From Modestobacter sp. VKM Ac-2984 (lineage in GTDB: Bacteria; Actinomycetota; Actinomycetes; Mycobacteriales; Geodermatophilaceae): a DNA stretch of 64,000 nt. The translations under genes were made by a program, and so were the position numbers. How positions within the stretch are numbered: position 1 is the stretch's first letter; each line of letters opens with the position of its first letter. The notes under the pieces are model-generated. The model saw nothing but the letters and a program-made list of their open reading frames with translations. It was not told the origin of the DNA and did not search any database. Positions 7,888-59,069 of this stretch are shown here, in pieces. The stretch lies in the NCBI RefSeq assembly GCF_026967985.1, contig NZ_JAPVBJ010000002.1:290349-354348 (forward strand), read 5' to 3'.

Positions 7888-7943
7888 TGGCGCTGTGGCC
7901 CGGGCTGCCAGCACGATGGCCTGACCACTTCCCTGGAGGCGAC

Positions 7944-8852
7944 GTGCCCTACTCCCTGGTCAGCGCTGCGACGCTCGGCTTCGACCTCGTCCGTCTGCCC
8001 GCCGGTGGCCAGGTCGCCGACGTCCTGGTGACCGGCATCGGTGCCGATGCCGCCACCCTGCACCGGATCGCCGCGGCGCACCCCGCCGCCGGCTGCCCCG
8101 ACGACGAGCGCGCGGCCCTCGCCGTCCGCGCCCGCCGGGCCCACGAACTGGCCGCCGGCGGCGTCCCGCAGCTGCGCGACCTGACCGCCCCGGCCGGCGA
8201 GGACCGGTCCGCCCGCCTGGTCGCCCTGCTGGAGCGCGGCACGATCGGCAACACCCCCGCCCTGGAGCGCCTGGTACGCGACGACGTCCTCGGCCCGGAG
8301 CACCCCGTCGTGGCCGACCTCGACCCGGCCGTGACGACCCAGGCCGCCGACGTGCTGGCCGATGCCGCCACCGGCTGGTGGGCCGCGGACGCCCTCGACG
8401 CACCGACCCGGGCCGAGCTCACCAGCCCGTTCGCGACCGCGACCGCCTGGGAGCCCGGTCCGCGACCGGACCTCGGACCCGCGGCCCCGGGTGTCGCTGC
8501 CTTCTTCGAGGAGCTGCGCGGCCTGGACGAGCCCGGTCGCCGGCGGTGGCGGCTGGCCGTCGACGCCGGGCGCGCCCAGCGCCGTCCCTGGGCTGCGGCG
8601 ATGCACGGTGCCGCCTGGGCCGCGCACGTCTCCGGCCGCACCCGCACCCTGGCCGCCGTCCAGCTCATGACCGTCGGGGTCTTCGCCGAGGCCGGCTTCT
8701 CCTCCCGGGACGGCGCCGAGGGCGTCTGGAACGCACTGGCCGGCTGCGTGCAGGGCCTGGCGATGGCCGACCTGCTGGACGAGGAGTCCCTCGCCGTGCT
8801 GGGTGGCCCGTGGGCCGCGGTGACCGGGAGGTCCCTCCCCCTCGAGGGGTGA
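7944..8852 (+). CDS. Uncharacterised protein in the chemotaxis locus
   Basis: A protein of 302 aa, read from GTG 7944 because ggaggcgac precedes it. I do not recognise the family. It is soluble, with no signal peptide or membrane segment, and rich in Ala, Arg and Asp. It starts VPYSLVSAATLGFDLVRLPA. The C-terminal half is the more patterned part, including GRRRWRLAVDAGRAQRRPW and ending near GAEGVWNALAGCVQGLAMAD. It sits between the receptors and cheB on the same strand, but cheB has its own promoter. A role in chemotaxis is only suggested by position. Confidence 0.75.
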   Translation: MPYSLVSAATLGFDLVRLPAGGQVADVLVTGIGADAATLHRIAAAHPAAGCPDDERAALAVRARRAHELAAGGVPQLRDLTAPAGEDRSARLVALLERGTIGNTPALERLVRDDVLGPEHPVVADLDPAVTTQAADVLADAATGWWAADALDAPTRAELTSPFATATAWEPGPRPDLGPAAPGVAAFFEELRGLDEPGRRRWRLAVDAGRAQRRPWAAAMHGAAWAAHVSGRTRTLAAVQLMTVGVFAEAGFSSRDGAEGVWNALAGCVQGLAMADLLDEESLAVLGGPWAAVTGRSLPLEG

Positions 8853-46982: not shown

Positions 46983-47759
46983 TCACGACGGCTCGTCCAA
47001 ACCGACGACGTGCACCCGGGTACCGGCGGCGGAGATCGACGCAGCGGCCGCAGGGTCCACCCCGGCGTCGGTGTAGACGGCGGTGAGCCGCTCGATGGGG
47101 ACGCAGGGGTGGATGGAGAAGCTGCCGAACTTCGATGAGTCGATCAGGCCGTAGACCTCGCGGCAGGCACTGGCCAGGTACGTCTTGGCCTGCGCCTCCT
47201 CGCTGGCGAGGTCGAGCAGCCCGTGGTGCGCGGAGATGCTGTGCCCACCGAGGAAGCCACGGTCGATACGGCCGCGGCCGGCGAGCACGTCACCGACCAG
47301 TCCGACCAGGGAACGCGCGGACCGTCGCACCACGCCGCCGGGCAGCAGCACGTTGGCGTCGGTGCGCTCGCACAGCAGGGTGGCGATCGGCAGGCTGTTG
47401 GTCACGACGACCAGGCCGCGCCGGTCCAGCAACTGGCTGGCGAGGTAGTGGCAGGTGGTCGAGGAGTCCAAGGCGATGACGTCGCCGTCGCGGACCAGCG
47501 GCGCCACGGCGTAGGCGATCGCCTCCTTCTCCGCCCGGTGGTGCCGCAACCGGGTGTCGAAGGTCCCCTCGTCGGCGGAGCGGGCGGCGACCGCACCACC
47601 ACGGATGCGACGCAACGCCGAACGCTGCTCGAGCGCTTCCAGGTCCTTGCGGATCGTGACGGTGGAGACGCCGAGCTGGCTGGCGAGAGTGCGCACGAGG
47701 ACCCGGCCGTCCGAATCGAGCCGGGACATGATCGCCTCGGAACGGGTGATCTCGTCCAC
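46983..47759 (-). CDS. DeoR-family transcriptional regulator
   Basis: A 258-aa DeoR regulator: N-terminal winged helix (LASQLGVSTVTIRKDLEALE, then LRRIRGGAV) and a C-terminal sugar-phosphate sensor domain (IALDSSTTCHYLASQLL, VTNSLPIATLL, GLIDSSKFGSFSIHP). The GTG start has gggaggga upstream. It is the first gene of the transporter-epimerase operon (129 bp before rhaS) and probably controls it in response to a phosphorylated sugar such as rhamnulose-1-phosphate; this is inferred. A 15-bp palindrome 34 bp before its start is a likely operator. Confidence 0.92.
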   Translation of the reverse strand: MDEITRSEAIMSRLDSDGRVLVRTLASQLGVSTVTIRKDLEALEQRSALRRIRGGAVAARSADEGTFDTRLRHHRAEKEAIAYAVAPLVRDGDVIALDSSTTCHYLASQLLDRRGLVVVTNSLPIATLLCERTDANVLLPGGVVRRSARSLVGLVGDVLAGRGRIDRGFLGGHSISAHHGLLDLASEEAQAKTYLASACREVYGLIDSSKFGSFSIHPCVPIERLTAVYTDAGVDPAAAASISAAGTRVHVVGLDEPS

Positions 47760-47792
47760 GTCCCTCCCGCCACCTGCAGTCTGAGGTGATGT

Positions 47793-47807
47793 GGATCACT
47801 GTGATCC
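47793..47807. promoter_or_regulatory. Palindrome upstream of the DeoR gene, likely operator
   Basis: GGATCAC-T-GTGATCC is a perfect 15-bp dyad 34 bp upstream of the DeoR GTG. A second site, atcacagtg at 47905-47913 (within tgatc-like flanks), repeats nine bases of it about 110 bp further upstream, as expected for a looping autoregulator. The rest of the 47760-47982 gap is relatively A/T-rich and carries no gene. Confidence 0.55.
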
Positions 47808-48039: not shown

Positions 48040-49044
48040 TCAGCCGCCGAGGATCGGCTCGTACACCTCCTGGGTGCGGTCGAGCAGCTGCTGGAACTCC
48101 TCCGCACCCTGGAACTCCGCCGGCACGTACTCCTCGCCGATCTGCTCGACGACCGCCGGGTCCTCGGACGCCGTCCGCAGCGCGTCCTCCAGCTCGGTGA
48201 CGATCTCCTCGGGCAGCTCATCGGGCCCGATGAGACCGAACGTCGACCCGGAGAGCGTCAGCTCCGGGAAGCCGGACTCGGCCAGGGTGGGGGTGTCCGG
48301 CAGCCAGGGCAGCGGCTCCGCGGAGGAGACCGCCAGCGGGCGGAACTGGCCGGCGTCGATGTTCGCGGTCACGTCGGAGGAGGCGTTGATCAGCACCGCG
48401 TCGACGTTGCCGCCCAGGAGGGCGGTGGTCATCTCGGCGTTGCCGTTGAACGGCACGGCGGTGACCTCGACGTCGTACTCCTCGGCCAGCCGCTGCAGCT
48501 CGATCGCCTGCGGGGTGGACGCGCCAGGCGTGCCGACGTTCAGCGAGCCGGGCTGCTGCCGGGCAGCAGCGAAGAACTCCTCGGCGGTGGCGTACGGCGA
48601 GTCCGCGCCGACGGCGAGCACCGACGGCACCTCGCTCATCACCCCGATCGGCGTCACGTCGTCCTTGGTGTAGCCGACCTCGTTGGCCAGCGGGGTGAGC
48701 ACCAGGGTGCCGGGGGTGGCGAGGGAGAGGGTGTGCCCGTCGGGGTCGGCGCCGATCAGCTCCTGGGTCGCGAGCGCGCCCGAGCCGCCGGGCAGGTTCT
48801 CCACCACCACGGTCTGGCCCAGCTGCTCCTCGAGGGAGGCGCCGTAGGCGCGGGCGGTCAGGTCCGTGGGACCGCCGGCCCCGTAGGGCACCAGCAGCCG
48901 GATCTCCTCGGTCGGGTACTCCGCGGCCGACTCGGCGGAGCCGGCCGTCTCCTCCGCCCCGCCGCAGGCGGTGAGCAGGCCGAGGGCGGTGCAGGCGGCG
49001 AGGGCGCGGGCGGTGCGGGCGCGGGAGGTGCGGGACAGGGGCAT
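48040..49044 (-). CDS. tctC: TTT substrate-binding lipoprotein TctC (copy 1)
   Basis: A 334-aa Bug-family binding protein of the tripartite tricarboxylate transporter (TTT) system. It has lipobox LLTAC near residue 27, then the first ligand loop LLVPYGAGGPTDLTAR and the second GSLNVGTPGASTPQA, both typical of the pocket that grips a carboxylate. The ATG follows ggaggcaac. It is last in the long operon led by tctB, after the CoA-transferase genes, and has no transporter membrane genes of its own, so it probably feeds the single TctAB pair. Confidence 0.9.
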   Translation of the reverse strand: MPLSRTSRARTARALAACTALGLLTACGGAEETAGSAESAAEYPTEEIRLLVPYGAGGPTDLTARAYGASLEEQLGQTVVVENLPGGSGALATQELIGADPDGHTLSLATPGTLVLTPLANEVGYTKDDVTPIGVMSEVPSVLAVGADSPYATAEEFFAAARQQPGSLNVGTPGASTPQAIELQRLAEEYDVEVTAVPFNGNAEMTTALLGGNVDAVLINASSDVTANIDAGQFRPLAVSSAEPLPWLPDTPTLAESGFPELTLSGSTFGLIGPDELPEEIVTELEDALRTASEDPAVVEQIGEEYVPAEFQGAEEFQQLLDRTQEVYEPILGG

Positions 49045-49073
49045 CGTTGCCTCCGGTGGTGGGGTGGGGCCGG

Positions 49074-50407: not shown

Positions 50408-52101
50408 CGCGGCCCCTGCCGGCGGTACCAGCGCGGCGAGGTCGACGGCGGCGGGGTGAGGGCCGCCCGCACCACCAGCACGTTCGGGCCGGTGGCGCCC
50501 AGCGCCGCGGTCAGCCGGCTCTCGAACTCCGGCCCGAAGCCGTCGACGGAGTCCGCCGGGACGCCGAAGGAGCGGGCCAGGGCGACGAAGTCGGGGGTGA
50601 CCAGGTCGACGCCGCGGGTCGGGGTCCCGCTGTGCACCTGGTCGAAGCGGAGCATCCCGTAGCCGCCGTCGTCGACGATCACCACGGTCAGCGCGGGCTG
50701 CTCCTGCGCGACCGCCGCCAGCTCGCCGCAGGCGAAGAGGAAGCCGCCGTCGCCGACCAGGGCCAGGGCGCGGCCCTGCCCGGCCAGCGCGGCGCCGAGC
50801 GCCGCGGGGAAGGCGTAGCCGAGCGTGCCCCAGCCCATCGGGAAGGCCAGCCGGCGCGGCCCGGGGACCCGGCCGAACGCCGCCACCCAGTAGCCGGCGA
50901 TGCACATGTCGGCCAGCAGCATCCCGTCGGGCAGCACTCCTTCAGGCGCGGACACCCGGTCCAGGACGTCCAGCAACTGGGCGGCCTGCGGGTCCTCGGC
51001 CGCCACCAGCGCGCGGACCCGGTCCCCCAGGCCGGCCAGCCGCTCCCGGAGCTGGGGGAGGCCGTCGCGCGGCGGGGTGCCGGCGAGGAGCTGGCCGACC
51101 ACCGTGGTGGCGTCCCCCACCAGGGTCAGGTCGGCCGGGTAGTTCTTGTTCGCGTCGGCGGCGTCGACGTTCACCGCGAGCAGGGTGGCCGGCTGCGGCA
51201 TCGCCCAGTTCTGCGTGGTCATCCCGTCGAGGTCGCTGCCGACGGCGATCACCAGGTCGGCGTCGTCCCACAGCGCCCCGATCTCGGGGACGTGCGCCGG
51301 CCCGGGGACCAGGCACGGGTGGTCGGGCCGGAGCACCCCGCGGCCGTTGTAGGTGGTGACCACCGGGGCGGCCAGCTGCTCGGCGAGCCGGCCCAGCACC
51401 TCCCCGGCGCCGCTGCGGAGCGCGCCGCCGCCGGCCCAGATTAGCGGGCGCCGGGCCGCGGTCAGCAGCTCCACCGCGCGGGCGACGTCCGCCTCGGGCG
51501 CGGTGGCCGACGGCGGGACGTCCGGGGCGGTCGGCCGGGCGCCGTCCACCGGCTGGCTGAGCAGGTCGGTCGGCACCCCGAGGTAGACCGGCCCGGTGGC
51601 GGCGGTCAGCGCGACGGCGCCGGCCCGCACCGTCTCCTCGCCCAGCCGGCCGGCCGAGTCGCAGGTGACCGTCAGCTTGGTGACCGGGGCGAACATCGCG
51701 CCTTGGTCCCGGGTCTCGTGCAGCACCCCGCGGTGCACGCCGGGGCGGCGCAGCGTGGTGGGGATGTCGGTGGCGACCACCAGCACCGGCGCGCCCGACG
51801 CCATCGCCTCGCCGGTGGCGCCCAGGGTGTTGGCCGCCCCGGGGCCGGTCGTGACGACGGCGACGCCGAGCCGGCCGGTGGCCCGGGCGTAGCCGTCGGC
51901 GGCGTAGACCGCAGTCTGTTCGTGCCGCACCCCGACCAGCCGCAGCCCCGCGGCGGCCGCCGCCTCCCAGACGGCCAGGTTGTGCACACCGGGCAGGCCG
52001 AAGGCGATCTCCACGCCCAGCTCCTGCAGGGCGGCGACCAGGTCGTCGGCGCCGGTCCGCACGCCGATCGCGGTCGTGGTGGCCTCAGTCACCGAGGACA
52101 T
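50404..52101 (-). CDS. ThDP-dependent decarboxylase/ligase-like enzyme
   Basis: A 565-aa thiamin diphosphate enzyme of the acetolactate synthase/benzoylformate decarboxylase superfamily. The ThDP-activating Glu lies in VRHEQTAVYAADGYAR, followed by VVTTGPGAANTLGA. The C-terminal ThDP/Mg motif is GDGGFLFACGELAAVAQ. ALS itself is unlikely: no small subunit is present, and the context is a transporter with CoA-transferase. A decarboxylase of an imported 2-oxo acid is my best inference, with the substrate open. The ATG overlaps the tctC2 gene by 17 nt; a GTG three codons in (52092) is an alternative. Confidence 0.85.
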   Translation of the reverse strand: MSSVTEATTTAIGVRTGADDLVAALQELGVEIAFGLPGVHNLAVWEAAAAAGLRLVGVRHEQTAVYAADGYARATGRLGVAVVTTGPGAANTLGATGEAMASGAPVLVVATDIPTTLRRPGVHRGVLHETRDQGAMFAPVTKLTVTCDSAGRLGEETVRAGAVALTAATGPVYLGVPTDLLSQPVDGARPTAPDVPPSATAPEADVARAVELLTAARRPLIWAGGGALRSGAGEVLGRLAEQLAAPVVTTYNGRGVLRPDHPCLVPGPAHVPEIGALWDDADLVIAVGSDLDGMTTQNWAMPQPATLLAVNVDAADANKNYPADLTLVGDATTVVGQLLAGTPPRDGLPQLRERLAGLGDRVRALVAAEDPQAAQLLDVLDRVSAPEGVLPDGMLLADMCIAGYWVAAFGRVPGPRRLAFPMGWGTLGYAFPAALGAALAGQGRALALVGDGGFLFACGELAAVAQEQPALTVVIVDDGGYGMLRFDQVHSGTPTRGVDLVTPDFVALARSFGVPADSVDGFGPEFESRLTAALGATGPNVLVVRAALTPPPSTSPRWYRRQGPR

Positions 52102-53065
52102 CGCGGAAGGTCTCCTCGGTCTCGACGAACAGCTCGCCCAGGCCGTCGGCGCCGATGAACTCCTCCGGCACGTACCGCTCGTCCAGCGACTCGACGACCT
52201 GCGGGTCCTCGGTGGCGCTGCGCAGCGTGTCCTCCAGCGTCTGCACGGCCTCCTCCGGCGTGCCGGCCGGGGCGATGACCCCGAAGGTCGTGGTGCTCTG
52301 CACCAGCTCGGGGTAGCCCAGCTCGACGAAGGTGGGGGCGTCCACGTAGGGCAGCGGCTCGGGACTGCCGACGGCCAGCACCCGCAGGTCGCCGGACTCG
52401 ATCGCGGGCAGGATGTCCTGGGACAGGTTGGCGAAGCCGGCGGTGACGTTCTCCCCCAGCAGCGCGGTCTGCACCTCCGCGTTGCCGTTGAACGGGACGA
52501 CGGTGAGCGGGACGTCGTACAGCTCGCTGATCCGCTGGGTCTCCGCGGCGTGGGTGTTGGTGGCCCCGGGGGTGCCGACGGTGACCGCCTGCGGGTCCTC
52601 CCGGGCGGCCTCGAAGAGGTCCTCCAGCGACTGGTACGGCGAGTCGGCCGGCACGAGGATCCCCGAGGGCACCTGGGTGACCACGCCGATCGGCGCGAAG
52701 TCCTCCCGGGTGTAGCCGACGTCGTTGGACAGGTAGTTGAGCACCGCCGTGGGCAGCGCCGTCATCGACAGCGTGTAGCCGTCGGCGTCGGCGTTGATGA
52801 GCTGCTGGTAGGCGGTCGCCCCCGAGGCCCCGGGCGCGTTCTCCACGACGACGGACTGGTCGAGCTCGCTCTCCATGTGCGCCGCCAGCGCCCGGGCGGC
52901 GATGTCGGTCGGACCGCCGGCCGTGTAGGGCACCAGCAGCCGGATGTCCTCGGTCGGGTACTCCTCCGCGGCCCCGGAGGCGTCGGTGGTCTCCTCCGCG
53001 CCGCCGCATCCGGTCAGTGCGACGCCGGTGACGAGCAGGACGGCGAGGGTGCGGCGCGCGGTCAT
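52085..53065 (-). CDS. tctC: TTT substrate-binding lipoprotein TctC (copy 2)
   Basis: A 326-aa Bug-family binding protein with lipobox ALTGC, ligand loop LLVPYTAGGPTDIAAR and VTVGTPGATNTHAAE. It is encoded directly downstream of tctA with a 4-nt overlap (ATGA), so it is the cognate binding protein of TctAB. The ribosome site aggagaacg precedes ATG 53065. It differs clearly from copies 1 and 3 in the second loop, so ligand ranges may differ. Confidence 0.92.
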   Translation of the reverse strand: MTARRTLAVLLVTGVALTGCGGAEETTDASGAAEEYPTEDIRLLVPYTAGGPTDIAARALAAHMESELDQSVVVENAPGASGATAYQQLINADADGYTLSMTALPTAVLNYLSNDVGYTREDFAPIGVVTQVPSGILVPADSPYQSLEDLFEAAREDPQAVTVGTPGATNTHAAETQRISELYDVPLTVVPFNGNAEVQTALLGENVTAGFANLSQDILPAIESGDLRVLAVGSPEPLPYVDAPTFVELGYPELVQSTTTFGVIAPAGTPEEAVQTLEDTLRSATEDPQVVESLDERYVPEEFIGADGLGELFVETEETFRDVLGD

Positions 53066-54717
53066 CGTTCTCCTGGGGTGGTGGAGGTGGACCCCGAGGG
53101 GCCGTCGGTGGGGGTGCCAGCAGTGGTGTCGGTGGTCGAGTCGGCGCCGGGGCTGCCCTCGGCGGTCACCTGCCGGTCGGCGTCCGGGGCCGATTCGTCG
53201 GTCTCGTCGACGTCGGCGGGGTCGACCCGGCCGAAGACCGCCTTGCGCCGGCGGCTGGTGATCGCGCTGACGATGATGATCAGCGCCATGAAGGCGAACA
53301 TGCCGCCGGAGATGGGGCGGGTGACGAAGATGTCGAGGTCGCCGCCGGAGAGCAGCATCGACTGCCGGAAGGCCCGCTCGAGGATCGACCCGAGCACGAA
53401 GGCGAGCACCAGCGGGCCCGGCTCGAAGCCGGTCTTCTTCATCAGCCAGCCGATGACCCCGAAGCCCAGCACGACCCACATGTCGAACGCGTTGTTGTTG
53501 ACCGAGAAGACGCCGACCATGGTGACCAGCAGCGCGAACGCGGCGAGGATGCCGGCCCGCACCCGGAGCATCTGGACGAAGACCCCGACCAGCGGGATGT
53601 TCAGCGCCAGCAACATCATGTTGCCGATCACCATCGAGGCGATGACGCCCCAGAAGATCTCCGGCTCCTGCTCGATCAGCTGCGGCCCCGGGGTGATGTT
53701 CTGCTGGATCAGGGCGCCGAAGATCAGCGCCAGCACCACGTTGGGCGGGATGCCCAGGGTGAGCAGCGGGATGAACGCCGAGGTGGAGGAGGCGTTGTTC
53801 GCCGTCTCCGGGCCGGCGACCCCCTCGATGGCGCCCTTGCCGAAACGGCTGGGGTCCTTGGCCCGGCGCTTCTCCATCGCGTAGGAGGCCAGCGAGGAGA
53901 CCACCCCGCCGCCGCCGGGCAGCACCCCGATCACGAAGCCGAGCAGCGAGCCGCGGCCGATCGCGCCGGAGGAGTCGCGGAAGTCCTTCCGGGTCGGCCA
54001 GATGCCCTTGATCTTCGAGGTGACCGCCTGGACCTTGTCGGTGCGCTCCAGGCTGTGCAGGATCTCCCCGACACCGAACAGGCCCATCGCCACCGCGACG
54101 AAGTCCAGGCCGTTGAACAGCGCCACCTCGCCGAAGGTGAAGCGCGCCGTGCCGGTGATCGGGTCCAGGCCGATGGTGGCCAGCAGCAGCCCCAGGGCGG
54201 CCATGCACAGGCTCTTCAGCACCGAGCCGGTGCCCAGGTAGGTGACCAGCAGGATGCCCAGGATGGTCAGCGCGACGTACTCCGGCGGCCCGAAGGAGAC
54301 CGCCAGGTCGGCCAGTGGGGGTGCCAGCAGGATCATCCCGATCACGGAGACCGTGCCGCCGATGTACGAGCCGATGGCGGCGATGCCGAGGGCCGGGCCG
54401 GCCCGGCCCTGCTTGGCCATCTGGTAGCCGTCGAAGGTGGTCACCACCGACGCCGCCTCGCCGGGCAGCCGCAGCAGCACCGAGGTGATCGTGCCGCCGT
54501 ACATCGAGCCGTAGTAGATGCCGGCCAGCAGGATGATCGCGGTCACCGGCTCGACCGTGTAGGTGATCGGCAGCAGCAGGGCGATCGACGCCGTCGGCCC
54601 GAGGCCGGGCAGCACCCCGATGACGGTGCCGATCAGCACGCCGAAGAACACGTACAGCAGGTTGGTCGGGGTCAGGGCGACGGAGAAGCCCTGGAGGATG
54701 CCGTCCCAGCTGTCCAC
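53062..54717 (-). CDS. tctA: TTT large membrane protein TctA
   Basis: A 551-aa TctA with 11-12 membrane segments. The conserved family motif GTVIGVLPGLGPTASIALLL near the N-terminus and its inverted counterpart GFVIGVLPGGGGVVSSLASY, plus GSMYGGTITSVLLRLPGE and KGAIEGVAGPETANNAS, are all present. It forms the ion-coupled permease with TctB. The C-terminal 50 residues are an acidic Thr/Ser/Asp-rich tail. The GTG start is one base after the tctB stop. Confidence 0.95.
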   Translation of the reverse strand: MDSWDGILQGFSVALTPTNLLYVFFGVLIGTVIGVLPGLGPTASIALLLPITYTVEPVTAIILLAGIYYGSMYGGTITSVLLRLPGEAASVVTTFDGYQMAKQGRAGPALGIAAIGSYIGGTVSVIGMILLAPPLADLAVSFGPPEYVALTILGILLVTYLGTGSVLKSLCMAALGLLLATIGLDPITGTARFTFGEVALFNGLDFVAVAMGLFGVGEILHSLERTDKVQAVTSKIKGIWPTRKDFRDSSGAIGRGSLLGFVIGVLPGGGGVVSSLASYAMEKRRAKDPSRFGKGAIEGVAGPETANNASSTSAFIPLLTLGIPPNVVLALIFGALIQQNITPGPQLIEQEPEIFWGVIASMVIGNMMLLALNIPLVGVFVQMLRVRAGILAAFALLVTMVGVFSVNNNAFDMWVVLGFGVIGWLMKKTGFEPGPLVLAFVLGSILERAFRQSMLLSGGDLDIFVTRPISGGMFAFMALIIIVSAITSRRRKAVFGRVDPADVDETDESAPDADRQVTAEGSPGADSTTDTTAGTPTDGPSGSTSTTPGER

Positions 54718-54718
54718 G

Positions 54719-55231
54719 TCAGCCCCCGATCACAGCGTCGACGAGGCCTTCGGGGAAGGGCACGCCGAGCAGTTCGACGAACAGCAGGTACATGACGGCC
54801 GTGCCGCCGACGGCCAGCCCCAGCGTCCAGCGCCAGGACTCACCGCCGAAGACCCGCAGCCACAGCACCAGCATCAGGAACGCCGAGACGACGAAGCCGA
54901 AGGTCTGGAACAGCAGGATGAAGACCCCGAGGCTGACCAGTCCGGCGATGATCCGAATCGTGCCGCGGGTCCACGGCTCGTAGTCCTCGGCCGGGTCGAT
55001 GAGGACGAGCACGGCTGCGGTGCCGGTCAGCAGCAGCGAGACGATGAAGGGCCACAGCCCCGGGCCCGGGGCCGTGAGCTCGCCCAGGCCCAGCTGTCGG
55101 GAGCCGATGATCGCGGCCACCCCGAGGACGAGGAGCAGCAGGGGCGCGATCCGGTGCAACTGGCGCCACCGATGCCCCCGGTCCGCCGTCCCCTCGGTGG
55201 GGGCGCCGGACGCCGATGTCGAGCCGTGCAC
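54719..55231 (-). CDS. tctB: TTT small membrane protein TctB
   Basis: A 170-aa four-helix membrane protein: RIAPLLLLVLGVAAIIGSRQ, GLWPFIVSLLLTGTAAVLVL, IRIIAGLVSLGVFILLFQ and a C-terminal TLGLAVGGTAVMYLLFVELLGV. This is the TctB layout. I chose GTG 55231, behind gaggtgagc. Longer frames exist, but they run through the promoter region that carries the 15-bp motif. It is the first gene of the tctB-tctA-tctC-ThDP-CoA-transferase-tctC operon. Confidence 0.87.
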   Translation of the reverse strand: MHGSTSASGAPTEGTADRGHRWRQLHRIAPLLLLVLGVAAIIGSRQLGLGELTAPGPGLWPFIVSLLLTGTAAVLVLIDPAEDYEPWTRGTIRIIAGLVSLGVFILLFQTFGFVVSAFLMLVLWLRVFGGESWRWTLGLAVGGTAVMYLLFVELLGVPFPEGLVDAVIGG

Positions 55232-55261
55232 GTGCTCACCTCGTCCTCGTTGACGCCCCGT

Positions 55262-55276
55262 GTGAGCCAGGACACT
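55262..55276. promoter_or_regulatory. 15-bp motif, copy A (tctB/lysR promoter)
   Basis: GTGAGCCAG-GA-CACT, 31 bp upstream of the tctB start and within the divergent tctB/lysR region. It shares 13 of 13 fixed positions with copies B and C at the tctC3/aldehyde dehydrogenase promoter. Confidence 0.7.
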
Positions 55277-55371
55277 AGGGCGGGCTTTGAGAATGGTCCA
55301 ATACGGAATCGCCCGCTGATCCAGAACGGCTGTGCATGAGTGGGAGAGCATGAGCGAGAGAGGAGGAGGCG

Positions 55372-56280
55372 ATGGAGCTGCGACACCTGCGCGCGTTCGC
55401 CGCCGTCGCCGAGGAGCTGCACTTCGGCCGGGCGGCGCTGCGGCTGCACGTGGCCCAGCCGGCGCTCAGTCAGCAGATCAAGCACCTCGAAGAGGACGTC
55501 GGCACGCTGCTGCTGGAGCGGACCACCCGGCAGGTGCGGCTGACCGCGGCGGGCGTGGTCTTCCTGGAGCACGTGCACCGGGTGCTGGCCGAGGTCGACC
55601 GGGCGCGCGAGTCGGTGCTGGCCGCCGAGCGGGGCGCCCGCGGCGAGATCCGGGTCGGGGTGACCGGGGCGATCACCTGGCGGCTGCTCCCCCGGATGGC
55701 CCGCGCCTACCGGCAGCGCTACCCGCTGGTGCGATTGGACCTGCACCCCGCGGTGTTCAGCGGCACCCAGGTCAGCTCGCTGCTGGACGGCCGGATCGAC
55801 GTCGGCTTCCTCCGCGCGCCGGTGCCCGACGGGCCGTTGGCCAGCCGGGTCATCCTCAACGAGCCGCTGATGGCCGTGCTGCCGCTGGACCACCCGCTGG
55901 CGGGGCAGGCCGCGGTGGCGCTGGCGGACCTGTCCGGGGACGGCTTCATCACCTATCCCTCCCGCCAGGGGTCCGCACTGCGCGACGCGGCGGTGCACGC
56001 CTGCTTCTCCGCCGGGTTCACCCCGCGGGTGGTCCAGGAGGCCCCGGACACCCACACCGTGGTCGCCCTGGTCGGCGCAGCGGTGGGCGTGACGCTGATG
56101 CCCGCCTCCGCCGAGCGGCTGCAGCTGGAGGGGGTGGTCTTTCGGCCGATCGCCGGCGGGGTCGACCTGCGGGTGCCCATCGCGCTGGCCTGGCGACGGG
56201 AGGACCCCTCCCCGGTGCTGGCCGGTTTCCTGGCCACCGCCGAGGAGGTGCTGCCCAGTCCGTCACCAGGCGATCGGTGA
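55372..56280 (+). CDS. LysR-family transcriptional regulator
   Basis: A 302-aa LysR regulator: winged helix (HLRAFAAVAEELHFGRAALR, LHVAQPALSQQIKHLE, LLERTTRQVRLT) and a two-lobed effector domain resembling the BenM/CatM/CbbR substrate-binding fold. The ATG has gagaggaggagg upstream. It is divergent from the tctB operon and convergent with tctC3, so it is the natural regulator of the whole cluster. The inducer is presumably the transported carboxylate or a metabolite of it. Confidence 0.93.
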   Translation: MELRHLRAFAAVAEELHFGRAALRLHVAQPALSQQIKHLEEDVGTLLLERTTRQVRLTAAGVVFLEHVHRVLAEVDRARESVLAAERGARGEIRVGVTGAITWRLLPRMARAYRQRYPLVRLDLHPAVFSGTQVSSLLDGRIDVGFLRAPVPDGPLASRVILNEPLMAVLPLDHPLAGQAAVALADLSGDGFITYPSRQGSALRDAAVHACFSAGFTPRVVQEAPDTHTVVALVGAAVGVTLMPASAERLQLEGVVFRPIAGGVDLRVPIALAWRREDPSPVLAGFLATAEEVLPSPSPGDR

Positions 56281-56312
56281 CCGGCGCCGTCCCCCGCTGC
56301 GGACGGCGCCGG
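56281..56312. terminator. Bidirectional terminator between lysR and tctC3
   Basis: A perfect 12-bp stem pairs 56281-56292 (ccggcgccgtcc) with 56301-56312, starting at the lysR stop. tctC3 ends 11 bp beyond it on the other strand. Confidence 0.75.
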
Positions 56313-56322
56313 CCACCAGGAC

Positions 56323-57330
56323 TCACTCCTGCAGGATCGGGCCGTACGTCTCGACGATCTCGTCGATCCGGTCGGCGAAGGCGTCCGTGCCGATGAACTC
56401 GTCGGGCACGTACTCCTCGCCGAGCCGCTCCATCACCTCGGGCTGCTCCAGGCAGTCGTTGACCGTCGTCTCCAGGGTGGTGACGACGTCCTCGGGCGTG
56501 CCGGCCGGGGCTGCGAGACCGAACACCGACACGCTGTTGGTCAGCTCCGGGAAGCCCGACTCGGCCAGCGTGGGCACGTCCTCCAGGTAGTCGACCTGCT
56601 CGGGGGGGCTCACCGCCAGCGGCACGAACTCGCCGGCCTCGACGTTCGCCAGCACGTCCTCCGAGGCGTTGATGAAGACGGCGTCCACGTTGTCGCCCAG
56701 CAGGGCGGTGGTCATCTCGGCGTTGCCGGTGAACGGCACCGCGGTCAGCTGGACGTCGTACTCCGCGGCCAGCCGCTGCAGTTCCATCGCCTGGGACGTC
56801 GTCGCCCCGGGGACGCCGACGTTCACCTGGCCGGGGTTCTCCTCGGCGTACTGGAAGAACGCCTCGGCGTCGGCGAACTCGGAGTCCGCCCCGACCGCGA
56901 GGACGGAGGGGATCTCGGTGACGGCGGCGATCGGGACGTAGTCCTCGTTGGTGTAGCCGACGTCCTGCTGGAGCGGGTTGGTCGCGGTGGCCGGGACGGC
57001 GATCAGGGACAGGCTGTAGCCGTCGGCGCCGCCGGCCAGCATCGCCTGCATGCCGAGCGACCCCGAGGCGCCGGGGCGGTTCTCCACCACGACGGTCTGG
57101 CCGAACTCCGTGGACAGGCAGTCGCCGATCGTCCGTGCGGCCAGGTCGGTCGGGCCGCCCGCGGCGTAGGGGACGTAGAGGGTGATGTCGTCGGTCGGGT
57201 ACTCCGCCGCTGCGGCGTCGTCCCCGCCACCTCCCACTGCGACCTCGTCCTCTTCCCCGCCGCCGCAGCCGGCCAGGGTGAGTGCAGATGCGGCGAGGAG
57301 TGCGGGAAGGGTGAGCCGGCGTCGTTGCAT
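56323..57330 (-). CDS. tctC: TTT substrate-binding lipoprotein TctC (copy 3)
   Basis: A 335-aa Bug-family binding protein with lipobox TLAGC, ligand loop LYVPYAAGGPTDLAAR and VNVGVPGATTSQAME. It has its own promoter with a copy of the 15-bp motif and stands apart from the tctBA operon, so it is a third receptor for the single TctAB transporter. Two extra cysteines (GDCLSTEF and NDCLEQPE) could form a disulfide. ATG 57330 follows ggaggcaacc. Confidence 0.9.
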   Translation of the reverse strand: MQRRRLTLPALLAASALTLAGCGGGEEDEVAVGGGGDDAAAAEYPTDDITLYVPYAAGGPTDLAARTIGDCLSTEFGQTVVVENRPGASGSLGMQAMLAGGADGYSLSLIAVPATATNPLQQDVGYTNEDYVPIAAVTEIPSVLAVGADSEFADAEAFFQYAEENPGQVNVGVPGATTSQAMELQRLAAEYDVQLTAVPFTGNAEMTTALLGDNVDAVFINASEDVLANVEAGEFVPLAVSPPEQVDYLEDVPTLAESGFPELTNSVSVFGLAAPAGTPEDVVTTLETTVNDCLEQPEVMERLGEEYVPDEFIGTDAFADRIDEIVETYGPILQE

Positions 57331-57371
57331 CGGTTGCCTCCGTCGTGTGTGGGGGAGTTGCCTGCGAAGGC

Positions 57372-57386
57372 AGTGGCCTGGCTCAC
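57372..57386. promoter_or_regulatory. 15-bp motif, copy B (tctC3 promoter)
   Basis: AGTG-GC-CTGGCTCAC, the reverse complement of GTGAGCCAGGCCACT, 42 bp upstream of the tctC3 ATG on the minus strand. It is inverted relative to copy C. Confidence 0.7.
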
Positions 57387-57453
57387 TGTGCCCTCCCTCG
57401 CGCACGGTCGCCCGGCCGCTGGATCACGGTCGGGCAACGATCCCGCAGGCCCT

Positions 57454-57468
57454 GTGAGCCAGTTCACT
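57454..57468. promoter_or_regulatory. 15-bp motif, copy C (aldehyde dehydrogenase promoter)
   Basis: GTGAGCCAG-TT-CACT, 36 bp upstream of the aldehyde dehydrogenase ATG, in the divergent region with tctC3. Copies B and C face each other across about 67 bp. Confidence 0.7.
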
Positions 57469-57503
57469 TACCAGACGTCCAAGACGACTGGCAGAGTGCC
57501 GAC

Positions 57504-59069
57504 ATGGCTGCTGCGTCGTCGCCCCCCGCCCTGCACGTCAAGCCCGGCACGGAGTGGGCCTCGGTCCTCGGCCGTGCCGCAGGGCTCGCCCCGGAGGCGT
57601 TCGGCACCGACCGGCTGCACAACCTGGTGGACGGTGCCTGGCGGCCGATCGGCAGCCCCGAGCCGCTGGTCACCCCGGTCGACGGCACCAAGCTCATCGG
57701 CCTCCCCCGGCTGTCGGCCGGCGAGGCGCAGCACGCCGTGCTGGCCGCCGCCGCGGCGCACCGCGAGTGGGCACGGACGCCGCTGGCCGAGCGCAAGGCC
57801 CGGGTCACCGCGGCCGTCGACGCGATGGCCGCGGCCCGCGACGAGCTGGCCCTGCTGCTGGCCTGGGAGATCGGCAAGCCGTGGAAGCTGGCCTGCGCCG
57901 ACGTCGACCGGGCGCTGGACGGCGTGCGCTGGTACGTCGATGGGATCGACACCATGCTCGGCGACCGCGCGCCGCTGGCCGGCCCGGTGTCCAACATCGC
58001 CAGCTGGAACTACCCGATGTCGGTGCTGGTGCACGCCGAGCTCGTGCAGCTGCTGGCCGGCAACGCCGTGCTGGCCAAGACGCCGTCCCAGGGTGGCGCC
58101 GCGTGCCTGACCCTGGCCCACGCGCTGATGGCCCACGCGGGGCTGCCGGTCACGCTGCTCTCCGGCGGCGGCGCGGAGCTGTCGTCGGTGCTGGTGCGCT
58201 CCCCGGAGATCGGCGCGCTGGCCTTCGTCGGCGGCCGCTCCAACGGCGGCAAGGTCGCCGCCGACCTGCTGGACACCGGCAAGCGGCACATGCTCGAGCA
58301 GGAGGGCCTCAACGCCTGGGGGATCTGGGAGTTCTCCGACTGGGCCGGGCTGGCCGCCCACCTGAAGAAGGGCTTCGAGTACGGCAAGCAGCGGTGCACC
58401 GCCTACCCGCGTTACGTCGTCCAGCGCGAGCTCGTCGACCAGTTCCTCGCCACCTACCTGCCGCTGGTGCAGTCGCTCCGGTTCGGGCACCCGCTGGCCG
58501 TCGAGGCCGACGCCGACGACCTCCCCACCCTGGACTTCGGGCCGGTGATCAGCGCCGCCAAGGCCCAGGAGCTGGGCCGCCAGGTGGACGACGCGATGCA
58601 CCGCGGCGCCGTCCCGCTGTACCGGGGCAGCGTCGCCGACGGCCGGTTCATCACCGGGCAGGACACCTCGGCCTACGTGGCACCGGCGGCGCTGCTCTCC
58701 CCGGCCGGCGCGAGCTCCCTCATGCACGCCGAGCCGTTCGGGCCGATCGACACGATCGTCGTGGTCGACTCCGAGGCGGAGCTGTTGGCCCAGATGAACG
58801 CCTCCAACGGCGCGCTGGTCGCCAGCCTGGCCTGCGACGACGAGGACAAGGCCCGCCGGCTGGCCCGGGAGGTGCAGGCGTTCAAGGTCGGCATCAACAA
58901 GCCCCGCTCGCGCGGCGACCGGGCCGAGCCGTTCGGTGGCCGGGGCGCGTCCTGGCTGGGCTGCTTCGTCGGCGGCGAGCTGCTGGTGCAGGCGGTCACC
59001 CAGGGGGCGGAGAACGAGCTGCTCTACGGCAACTTCCCCGAGCACTCGCGCTACCCCGCCGCCATCTGA
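57504..59069 (+). CDS. Aldehyde dehydrogenase family protein
   Basis: A 521-aa NAD(P)-dependent aldehyde dehydrogenase. Rossmann and substrate segments include NIASWNYPMSVLVHAE, and C298 in GKQRCTAYPRYVV is the catalytic cysteine. The usual ELGGK glutamate motif is replaced by MLEQEGLNAWG (E265 or E267 could be the base), so it is a diverged member. The start is ATG 57504. It is divergent from tctC3 and its promoter bears the 15-bp motif. With the ThDP enzyme it could oxidise an aldehyde released by decarboxylation; the substrate is unknown. Confidence 0.85.
   Translation: MAAASSPPALHVKPGTEWASVLGRAAGLAPEAFGTDRLHNLVDGAWRPIGSPEPLVTPVDGTKLIGLPRLSAGEAQHAVLAAAAAHREWARTPLAERKARVTAAVDAMAAARDELALLLAWEIGKPWKLACADVDRALDGVRWYVDGIDTMLGDRAPLAGPVSNIASWNYPMSVLVHAELVQLLAGNAVLAKTPSQGGAACLTLAHALMAHAGLPVTLLSGGGAELSSVLVRSPEIGALAFVGGRSNGGKVAADLLDTGKRHMLEQEGLNAWGIWEFSDWAGLAAHLKKGFEYGKQRCTAYPRYVVQRELVDQFLATYLPLVQSLRFGHPLAVEADADDLPTLDFGPVISAAKAQELGRQVDDAMHRGAVPLYRGSVADGRFITGQDTSAYVAPAALLSPAGASSLMHAEPFGPIDTIVVVDSEAELLAQMNASNGALVASLACDDEDKARRLAREVQAFKVGINKPRSRGDRAEPFGGRGASWLGCFVGGELLVQAVTQGAENELLYGNFPEHSRYPAAI

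Follow-up and report, generated by a model that had tools for sequence, protein, structure and literature searches.

Known Crp-type regulators and the locus

Several Crp-type regulators of actinobacteria recognise related DNA sequences. The Crp protein of Streptomyces coelicolor (SCO3571) has the consensus GTG(N)6GNCAC and the motif given for GlxR is NGTG(N)8CACN (PMC10033298); a consensus of TGTGA-N6-TCACA is also given (PMC7999487). Here we have analysed a stretch of 64,000 nucleotides from Modestobacter sp. VKM Ac-2984 (the window), and in it three similar sites that lie around a gene for a LysR-type regulator. They are found at the promoters of tctB and tctC3, two genes of the tripartite tricarboxylate transporter (TTT) type, and of a gene encoding an aldehyde dehydrogenase (ALDH). 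We propose that all three are Crp/GlxR-type sites at these promoters with Crp as the likely binding protein, and on the available sequences we put the probability of this at roughly 0.7.

Sites 1 (tctB) and 2 (tctC3) agree exactly with the S. coelicolor consensus (GTG-AGCCAG-GACAC and GTG-AGCCAG-GCCAC respectively), while site 3 (ALDH) has T in place of G. Like the GlxR sites of Corynebacterium glutamicum, the sites are GTG-N8-CAC sequences close to promoters of carbon metabolism genes, and site 3 matches nine of the ten bases of TGTGA-N6-TCACA. They differ from the GlxR sites in their right arms (ACACT, CCACT and TCACT rather than TCACA), in having a common GCCAG core, and in being predicted sites. 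What they share with LysR-type operators is a position between lysR and a divergent gene. The Crp of Mycobacterium tuberculosis (Rv3676) presumably shares both protein subfamily and recognition helix with the Crp encoded in the Modestobacter genome. The sequence GGTGACACAGCCCACA, tabulated as a CRP site for Rv0079 (PMC9645806), has similar arms and a CAG centre; the target genes given in the passages considered are different, and no TTT gene is among them.

The control of TTT systems has been little studied to our knowledge. Literature searches combining TTT with LysR, TTT or TctC with Crp, and Modestobacter with Crp or operator revealed no such regulation in titles and the opening parts of abstracts among the records listed, which does not prove its absence.

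The dyad at the ALDH promoter in related genomes

A match to the ALDH at E 1e-200 was found in 24 of 112 genomes of the family, at 25 loci, and 24 upstream regions were aligned (the second copy in G016 was left out). In 19 of these the start is preceded by an element CTGGCA..GT; the five regions lacking it (G058, G164, G077, G050 and G027) were not counted. Sixteen of the 19 promoters have GTG-N8-CAC no further than 45 bp from CTGGCA, and 15 of these place it 18-21 bp before the element. On shuffling the 19 upstream sequences base by base 2000 times, the mean was 0.3 and the maximum 3 of 19, a comparison that ignores the relatedness of the genomes.

Twelve of the 19 promoters come from genomes without a match to the LysR protein at E 1e-110. 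The dyad is retained in ten of the twelve, always at 18-21 bp, with central bases that vary (e.g. GCGCTG, TCGCGG and TCACCA). Four of the twelve genomes (G002, G011, G015 and G069) are 70-80% complete, so that the absence of LysR is less certain there. The genes beside ALDH in the LysR-less genomes also differ. By eye they include an ArsR-like open reading frame (ORF) in G002 and a LacI-like one in G035, while in another genus, labelled g4, there is a phosphotransferase system (PTS)-like ORF in five and an FGGY-kinase-like ORF in four. Since the neighbours vary in this way, no single local regulator accompanies ALDH. We note that the occurrence of the g4 ALDH genes (L167-L171 and L179) beside PTS-like, FGGY-kinase-like or LacI-like ORFs suggests a role in the oxidation of sugar-derived aldehydes.

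Crp and its own promoter

Nine matches to PF13545 (HTH_Crp_2) were found in the genome (4,557,465 bases in 21 contigs), one of them above the cut-off, i.e. a single Crp. Comparison of this protein with the solved Crp/Fnr proteins 3i54 and 3d0s gives E values of about 1e-100 and an identical recognition helix, SRETVNKALADF; we take these structures to be of M. tuberculosis Crp. Crp was found in 56 of 59 genomes, including that of VKM Ac-2984, and the remaining three, which gave no match, have a completeness of 67-72%. The genome has one class III cyclase domain (PF00211) above the cut-off, from which production of cyclic AMP (cAMP) is predicted.

The promoters of crp genes in the family carry a similar dyad. 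Thirty crp loci were fetched and 27 upstream regions extracted from them (L132, L145 and L154 were left out). GTG-N8-CAC begins no more than 25 bp before a TAGACT sequence in 25 of the 27, among which there are 14 distinct sequences; the promoters of L142 and L144 have no such dyad before TAGACT. Three crp promoters read GTGAGCCGAGCCAC, differing from site 2 by two core bases.

The 13-base string and the constrained unit

The preliminary description of this DNA had drawn attention to a string with 13 fixed bases, GTGAGCCAGNNCACT, and had read its three copies as operators through which the LysR protein ties the transporter, its extra binding protein and the dehydrogenase into one unit. Direct search agrees with the copies, their strands and their uniqueness. 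They lie at 55262-55276 (+), 57372-57386 (-) and 57454-57468 (+), the fixed bases are identical in all three, and there is no fourth exact copy within the window. The distances to the start codons are likewise borne out, being 31 bp to the GTG of tctB from site 1, 42 bp to the ATG of tctC3 from site 2 and 36 bp to the ATG of ALDH from site 3. The sites are thus promoter-proximal, they form the partial dyad that had been described, and they are conserved.

In its own genome the exact string matches three times, all at the locus, and a reversed control pattern not at all; the chance expectation is about 0.17 exact matches per genome (25 matches of the reversed control over 146 genomes, own included). 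If up to two mismatches are allowed there are 107 places in the genome compared with 97 for the control, i.e. near background. Over the 146 genomes there are 39 exact matches in 26 genomes, of which 14, from seven Modestobacter genomes, are at the locus. The other 25 lie elsewhere, and the reversed control likewise gives 25. Thus the string is unique to the locus in its own genome, while outside the locus it occurs at background level in relatives, and for this reason we rejected the idea that the exact 13-mer marks a regulon in these relatives. Loci were obtained for 23 of the 25 off-locus matches, and 15 of the 23 lie outside ORFs. We give this little weight, as it depends on a crude ORF caller based upon third-position G+C that makes evident mistakes (it assigned the promoter copies of L018, L031 and L032 to ORFs). 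The 13-base string is thus a local feature, and what is constrained is the GTGA-N6-NCAC dyad that it contains. At sites 1 and 3 conservation is confined to the arms and the centre varies; the right arm is imperfect at sites 1 and 2.

The tctB promoter

The region between tctB and lysR was extracted from the 15 of 112 family genomes that have a LysR match at E 1e-110, and an alignment was made of the window and 11 relatives. Site 1 has the form TGTG[A/G]-N5-GACACT in all 15 genomes. TGTG and GACACT are invariant, the base following TGTG is A in 14 of the 15, and the next five bases vary. Five genomes of a second genus (g5, Geodermatophilus judging by its named loci) read TGTGACGCCCGACACT, where the arms are alike and the centre is different.

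At its right end site 1 contains ACACTA (55272-55277), which is a -10-like TAGTGT when read towards tctB. A second sequence, TGGTCCAAT, from the block at 55294-55310, is also present in all 15 genomes. This block has a -35-like TTGGAC that is 18 bp from TAGTGT in the window and 18 or 19 bp from it in the 12 aligned regions (measured in L043 from a second ACACTA). In L043 (about 7890-7945; equivalent to L187 of G168) a local duplication has parted the dyad from the -10-like ACACTA. The second ACACTA holds the promoter spacing, and the whole dyad persists separately. This splitting of the two elements suggests that the dyad and the -10 are separate constraints at tctB.

The tctC3 upstream region

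The arms of site 2 (AGTGA...CCACT) are present in all seven Modestobacter genomes that have the cluster. The GCCAG core is found in six of them; in G001 it is replaced (AGTGATCGACGCCACT) with the arms unchanged. In Geodermatophilus there is another GTG-N8-CAC some 98-112 bp upstream of tctC3 in four of six loci and none in two (the tctC3 start in L041 of this set is an estimate).

A further conserved block lies between sites 2 and 3. Its core, CACGGTC..GCAACGATC, occurs in five of five Modestobacter loci and in none of the six Geodermatophilus loci tested. By eye the block is seen in G008 and is not seen in the ALDH promoters of LysR-less genomes. In the Geodermatophilus loci L038-L043 we observed a different conserved sequence about 100-130 bp upstream of tctC3, AACCGTCATGAA(G/C)CTGTGACC, that is present in three of the six loci with near variants in the other three (by eye).

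Assessment of the proposed and alternative explanations

A number of observations weigh against assignment of the sites to Crp or support it weakly. Eight of the LysR-less genomes are 99-100 complete, and the six of these that have the ALDH dyad are all from g4; overall, of the ten dyads in LysR-less genomes, seven are from g4 and three from incomplete Modestobacter assemblies, so there are few independent events. Four of the 19 ALDH promoters have no dyad at the usual spacing. These are G008 from the same genus, whose dyad is 25 bp from the element and in another register, and G018 (one arm base off), G030 and G042, which have none. Geodermatophilus lacks site 2 at the corresponding position. 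GTG-N8-CAC alone is common, with 47 occurrences in the window, and a weight matrix derived from the crp promoters ranks sites 1, 2 and 3 only 43rd, 89th and 18th in the window and so failed to single them out. This is a negative result, although the matrix is a poor test either way, being derived from one promoter family with 14 distinct sites and dominated by the flanks. In favour of Crp, the sequence GTGA-N6-TCAC occurs at 66 places in the genome compared with seven for its reversed control, but the dinucleotides of the control differ, so these figures overstate the excess. Of the first 15 such places seven were called outside ORFs and eight inside by the crude caller. Some are upstream of genes, e.g. 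those (named by eye) for an ABC (ATP-binding cassette) ATPase (L208), an etfB-like protein (L211) and a luciferase-like monooxygenase (L210), where the caller put the place inside another ORF. A GTGA-N6-TCAC site close to the adenylate cyclase gene (C16:158266) was dropped as a cyclase promoter site because it lies inside another reading frame. A last point against Crp is the common GCCAG core, which is unlikely to be accidental and which Crp does not require. It might stem from a core preference, from copying or from convergence.

The sites might instead be operators of the adjacent LysR protein, serving a dedicated transporter and ALDH regulon. The three identical copies in the genome are all confined to 2.2 kb around lysR, and site 1 is present in the tctB-lysR divergent region of every genome with a LysR match. 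However, the ALDH site stays where no LysR match is found, as in the ten of twelve promoters described above, and so it is hard to attribute to LysR. A LysR-type operator is defined by an interrupted dyad T-N11-A, as for BenM and AlsR, and inspection revealed no T-N11-A at positions shared by the three sites. The 13-mer owes its uniqueness to central bases that change from one orthologue to another, and other blocks in the same intergenic regions track the presence of LysR or tctC3 better. We therefore rejected the LysR operator as the principal explanation, the ALDH dyad not tracking LysR, and regard it as improbable. The idea of an operator was probably right in kind with the wrong protein named; tctB, tctC3 and ALDH are plausibly under one regulator as the preliminary description held, while the dedicated unit run by LysR is not upheld. 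The error is a natural one, as a locally unique 13-mer beside a LysR gene resembles a private operator, and it is the LysR-less orthologues, keeping only the outer arms, that correct it. The blocks at 55294-55310 and 57421-57443 are better candidates for LysR binding than the three dyads. The former could equally be just the -35 region of tctB, and the latter is a weak candidate because it is missing from Geodermatophilus, which has LysR.

Another global regulator with similar half-sites, such as an uncharacterised dimeric repressor or Rex, seems unlikely as the binding protein, if a little less so than LysR. Several families use arms like GTGA..TCAC, and while a single HTH_Crp_2 protein exceeded the cut-off, the survey of regulators covered that family alone. 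The operator motif of Rex is TTGTGAA-N4-TTCACAA, and the VKM Ac-2984 genome has, before a nuoA-like gene, an exact TGTGA-N6-TCACA (TTGTGAACCAGTTCACAA) that resembles a Rex site. Yet neither the three sites nor the ALDH orthologues (GGTGATCACCATCACC and similar) contain the Rex arms TTGTGAA/TTCACAA, even the TGTGAA arm being missing, and Rex was rejected for the three sites; moreover the genome encodes a Crp whose recognition helix is the same as in solved Crp/Fnr proteins. It is very improbable that the shared string is just a part of the core promoter, or was recently copied within the locus, and binds no regulator. The right arm of site 1 does form the -10-like TAGTGT at a near-constant distance from TTGGAC, but the TGTG arm is equally invariant, the second ACACTA of G168 keeps the -10 spacing with the whole dyad persisting apart, and in the ALDH promoter the -10-like element stands apart from the dyad. 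Most likely the regulation is real but fairly ordinary, with sites that would belong to the already known Crp/GlxR class. As a separate observation, TTGTGAACCAGTTCACAA upstream of the nuoA-like gene (named by eye; L123 1501-1516, G000:C17:135506) is followed by GTGAAGCAGTTCACAA, and the two resemble tandem Rex sites.

A possible mechanism

If the sites are bound by Crp, cAMP-Crp would set the expression of tctB (and with it the transporter operon), tctC3 and ALDH according to carbon status. The promoter elements, the LysR sites and whether binding activates or represses are all inferred from sequence. The ALDH transcript may be leaderless, given the position of the -10-like CAGAGT 6 bp ahead of the ATG. 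The dyad would be centred 41-44 bp before this probably leaderless start (about 43.5 bp before the ATG for site 3) and beside the -35 region, where binding would activate. The classical position of a class II activator is near this placement. At tctB repression would be expected on binding, because the dyad covers the -10-like TAGTGT and the start region. Start-proximal CRP sites are associated with repression and distal ones with activation (PMC9645806). LysR would respond to the substrate by binding elsewhere, the likeliest place being the TGGTCCAAT-N3-GAATC block, with the GATCACGGTCGGGCAACGATC block as a further possibility.

A more elaborate history is conceivable but doubtful. The TTT/LysR cluster may have arrived beside ALDH in Modestobacter, with the transporter and extra binding protein becoming wired into pre-existing global control of ALDH and a GCCAG-centred site converging or being copied at three promoters, so that uptake would be repressed and oxidation activated by one regulator. 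If the assignment to Crp is correct, a TTT operon, an extra binding protein and a dehydrogenase would be added to the targets of a global carbon regulator in a lineage of desert and stone surfaces.

Organization of the locus

The features of the locus are listed in Table 1.

Table 1. Positions of genes, candidate sites and promoter elements in the window
Feature	Position	Strand	Remarks
Site 1, TGTGAGCCAGGACACTA	55261..55277	+	candidate Crp/GlxR-type dyad, tctB promoter
Site 2, GTGAGCCAGGCCACT	57372..57386	-	candidate Crp/GlxR-type dyad, upstream of tctC3
Site 3, GTGAGCCAGTTCACT	57454..57468	+	candidate Crp/GlxR-type dyad, upstream of ALDH
Conserved block TGGTCCAATACGGAATC	55294..55310		-35-like TTGGAC for tctB and/or LysR site (candidate)
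Conserved block GGATCACGGTCGGGCAACGATCC	57421..57443		lies between sites 2 and 3; weak candidate for LysR binding
-10-like CAGAGT	57492..57497	+	before ALDH ATG
tctA-like	53062..54717	-	large membrane subunit, 3' of tctB; candidate, identity by eye
tctB	54719..55231	-	PF07331; GTG start at 55231
lysR	55372..56280	+	HTH_1 and LysR_substrate domains; AlsR/BenM-like
tctC3	56323..57330	-	extra TTT substrate-binding lipoprotein (PF03401); ATG at 57330
ALDH	57504..59069	+	aldehyde dehydrogenase (PF00171); ATG at 57504

The best NCBIfam model for the LysR protein is AlsR, with a score of 273.9 bits that is below the cut-off of 430, and its nearest named relatives are from Modestobacter and Geodermatophilus. 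A second tctC gene also lies 3' of tctB, together with the tctA-like gene. There is one tctAB pair, and cross-matches reveal three TctC-type binding proteins, at 48040-49060 (start uncertain), 52085-53065 and 56323-57330.

Two further sequences were observed elsewhere. GTGATCCACATCAC, at 47786-47799 of the window, is a candidate Crp-type site about 27 bp upstream of an ORF for a DeoR-type regulator (46983-47759, -) that adjoins a rhamnose-type ABC binding protein. GTGACCCAGTTCAC (L212 1194; G000:C12:412193) immediately precedes a short ORF that ends in IDGMCGVY and by eye resembles a mycofactocin precursor; a TetR-like ORF (by eye) lies divergently.

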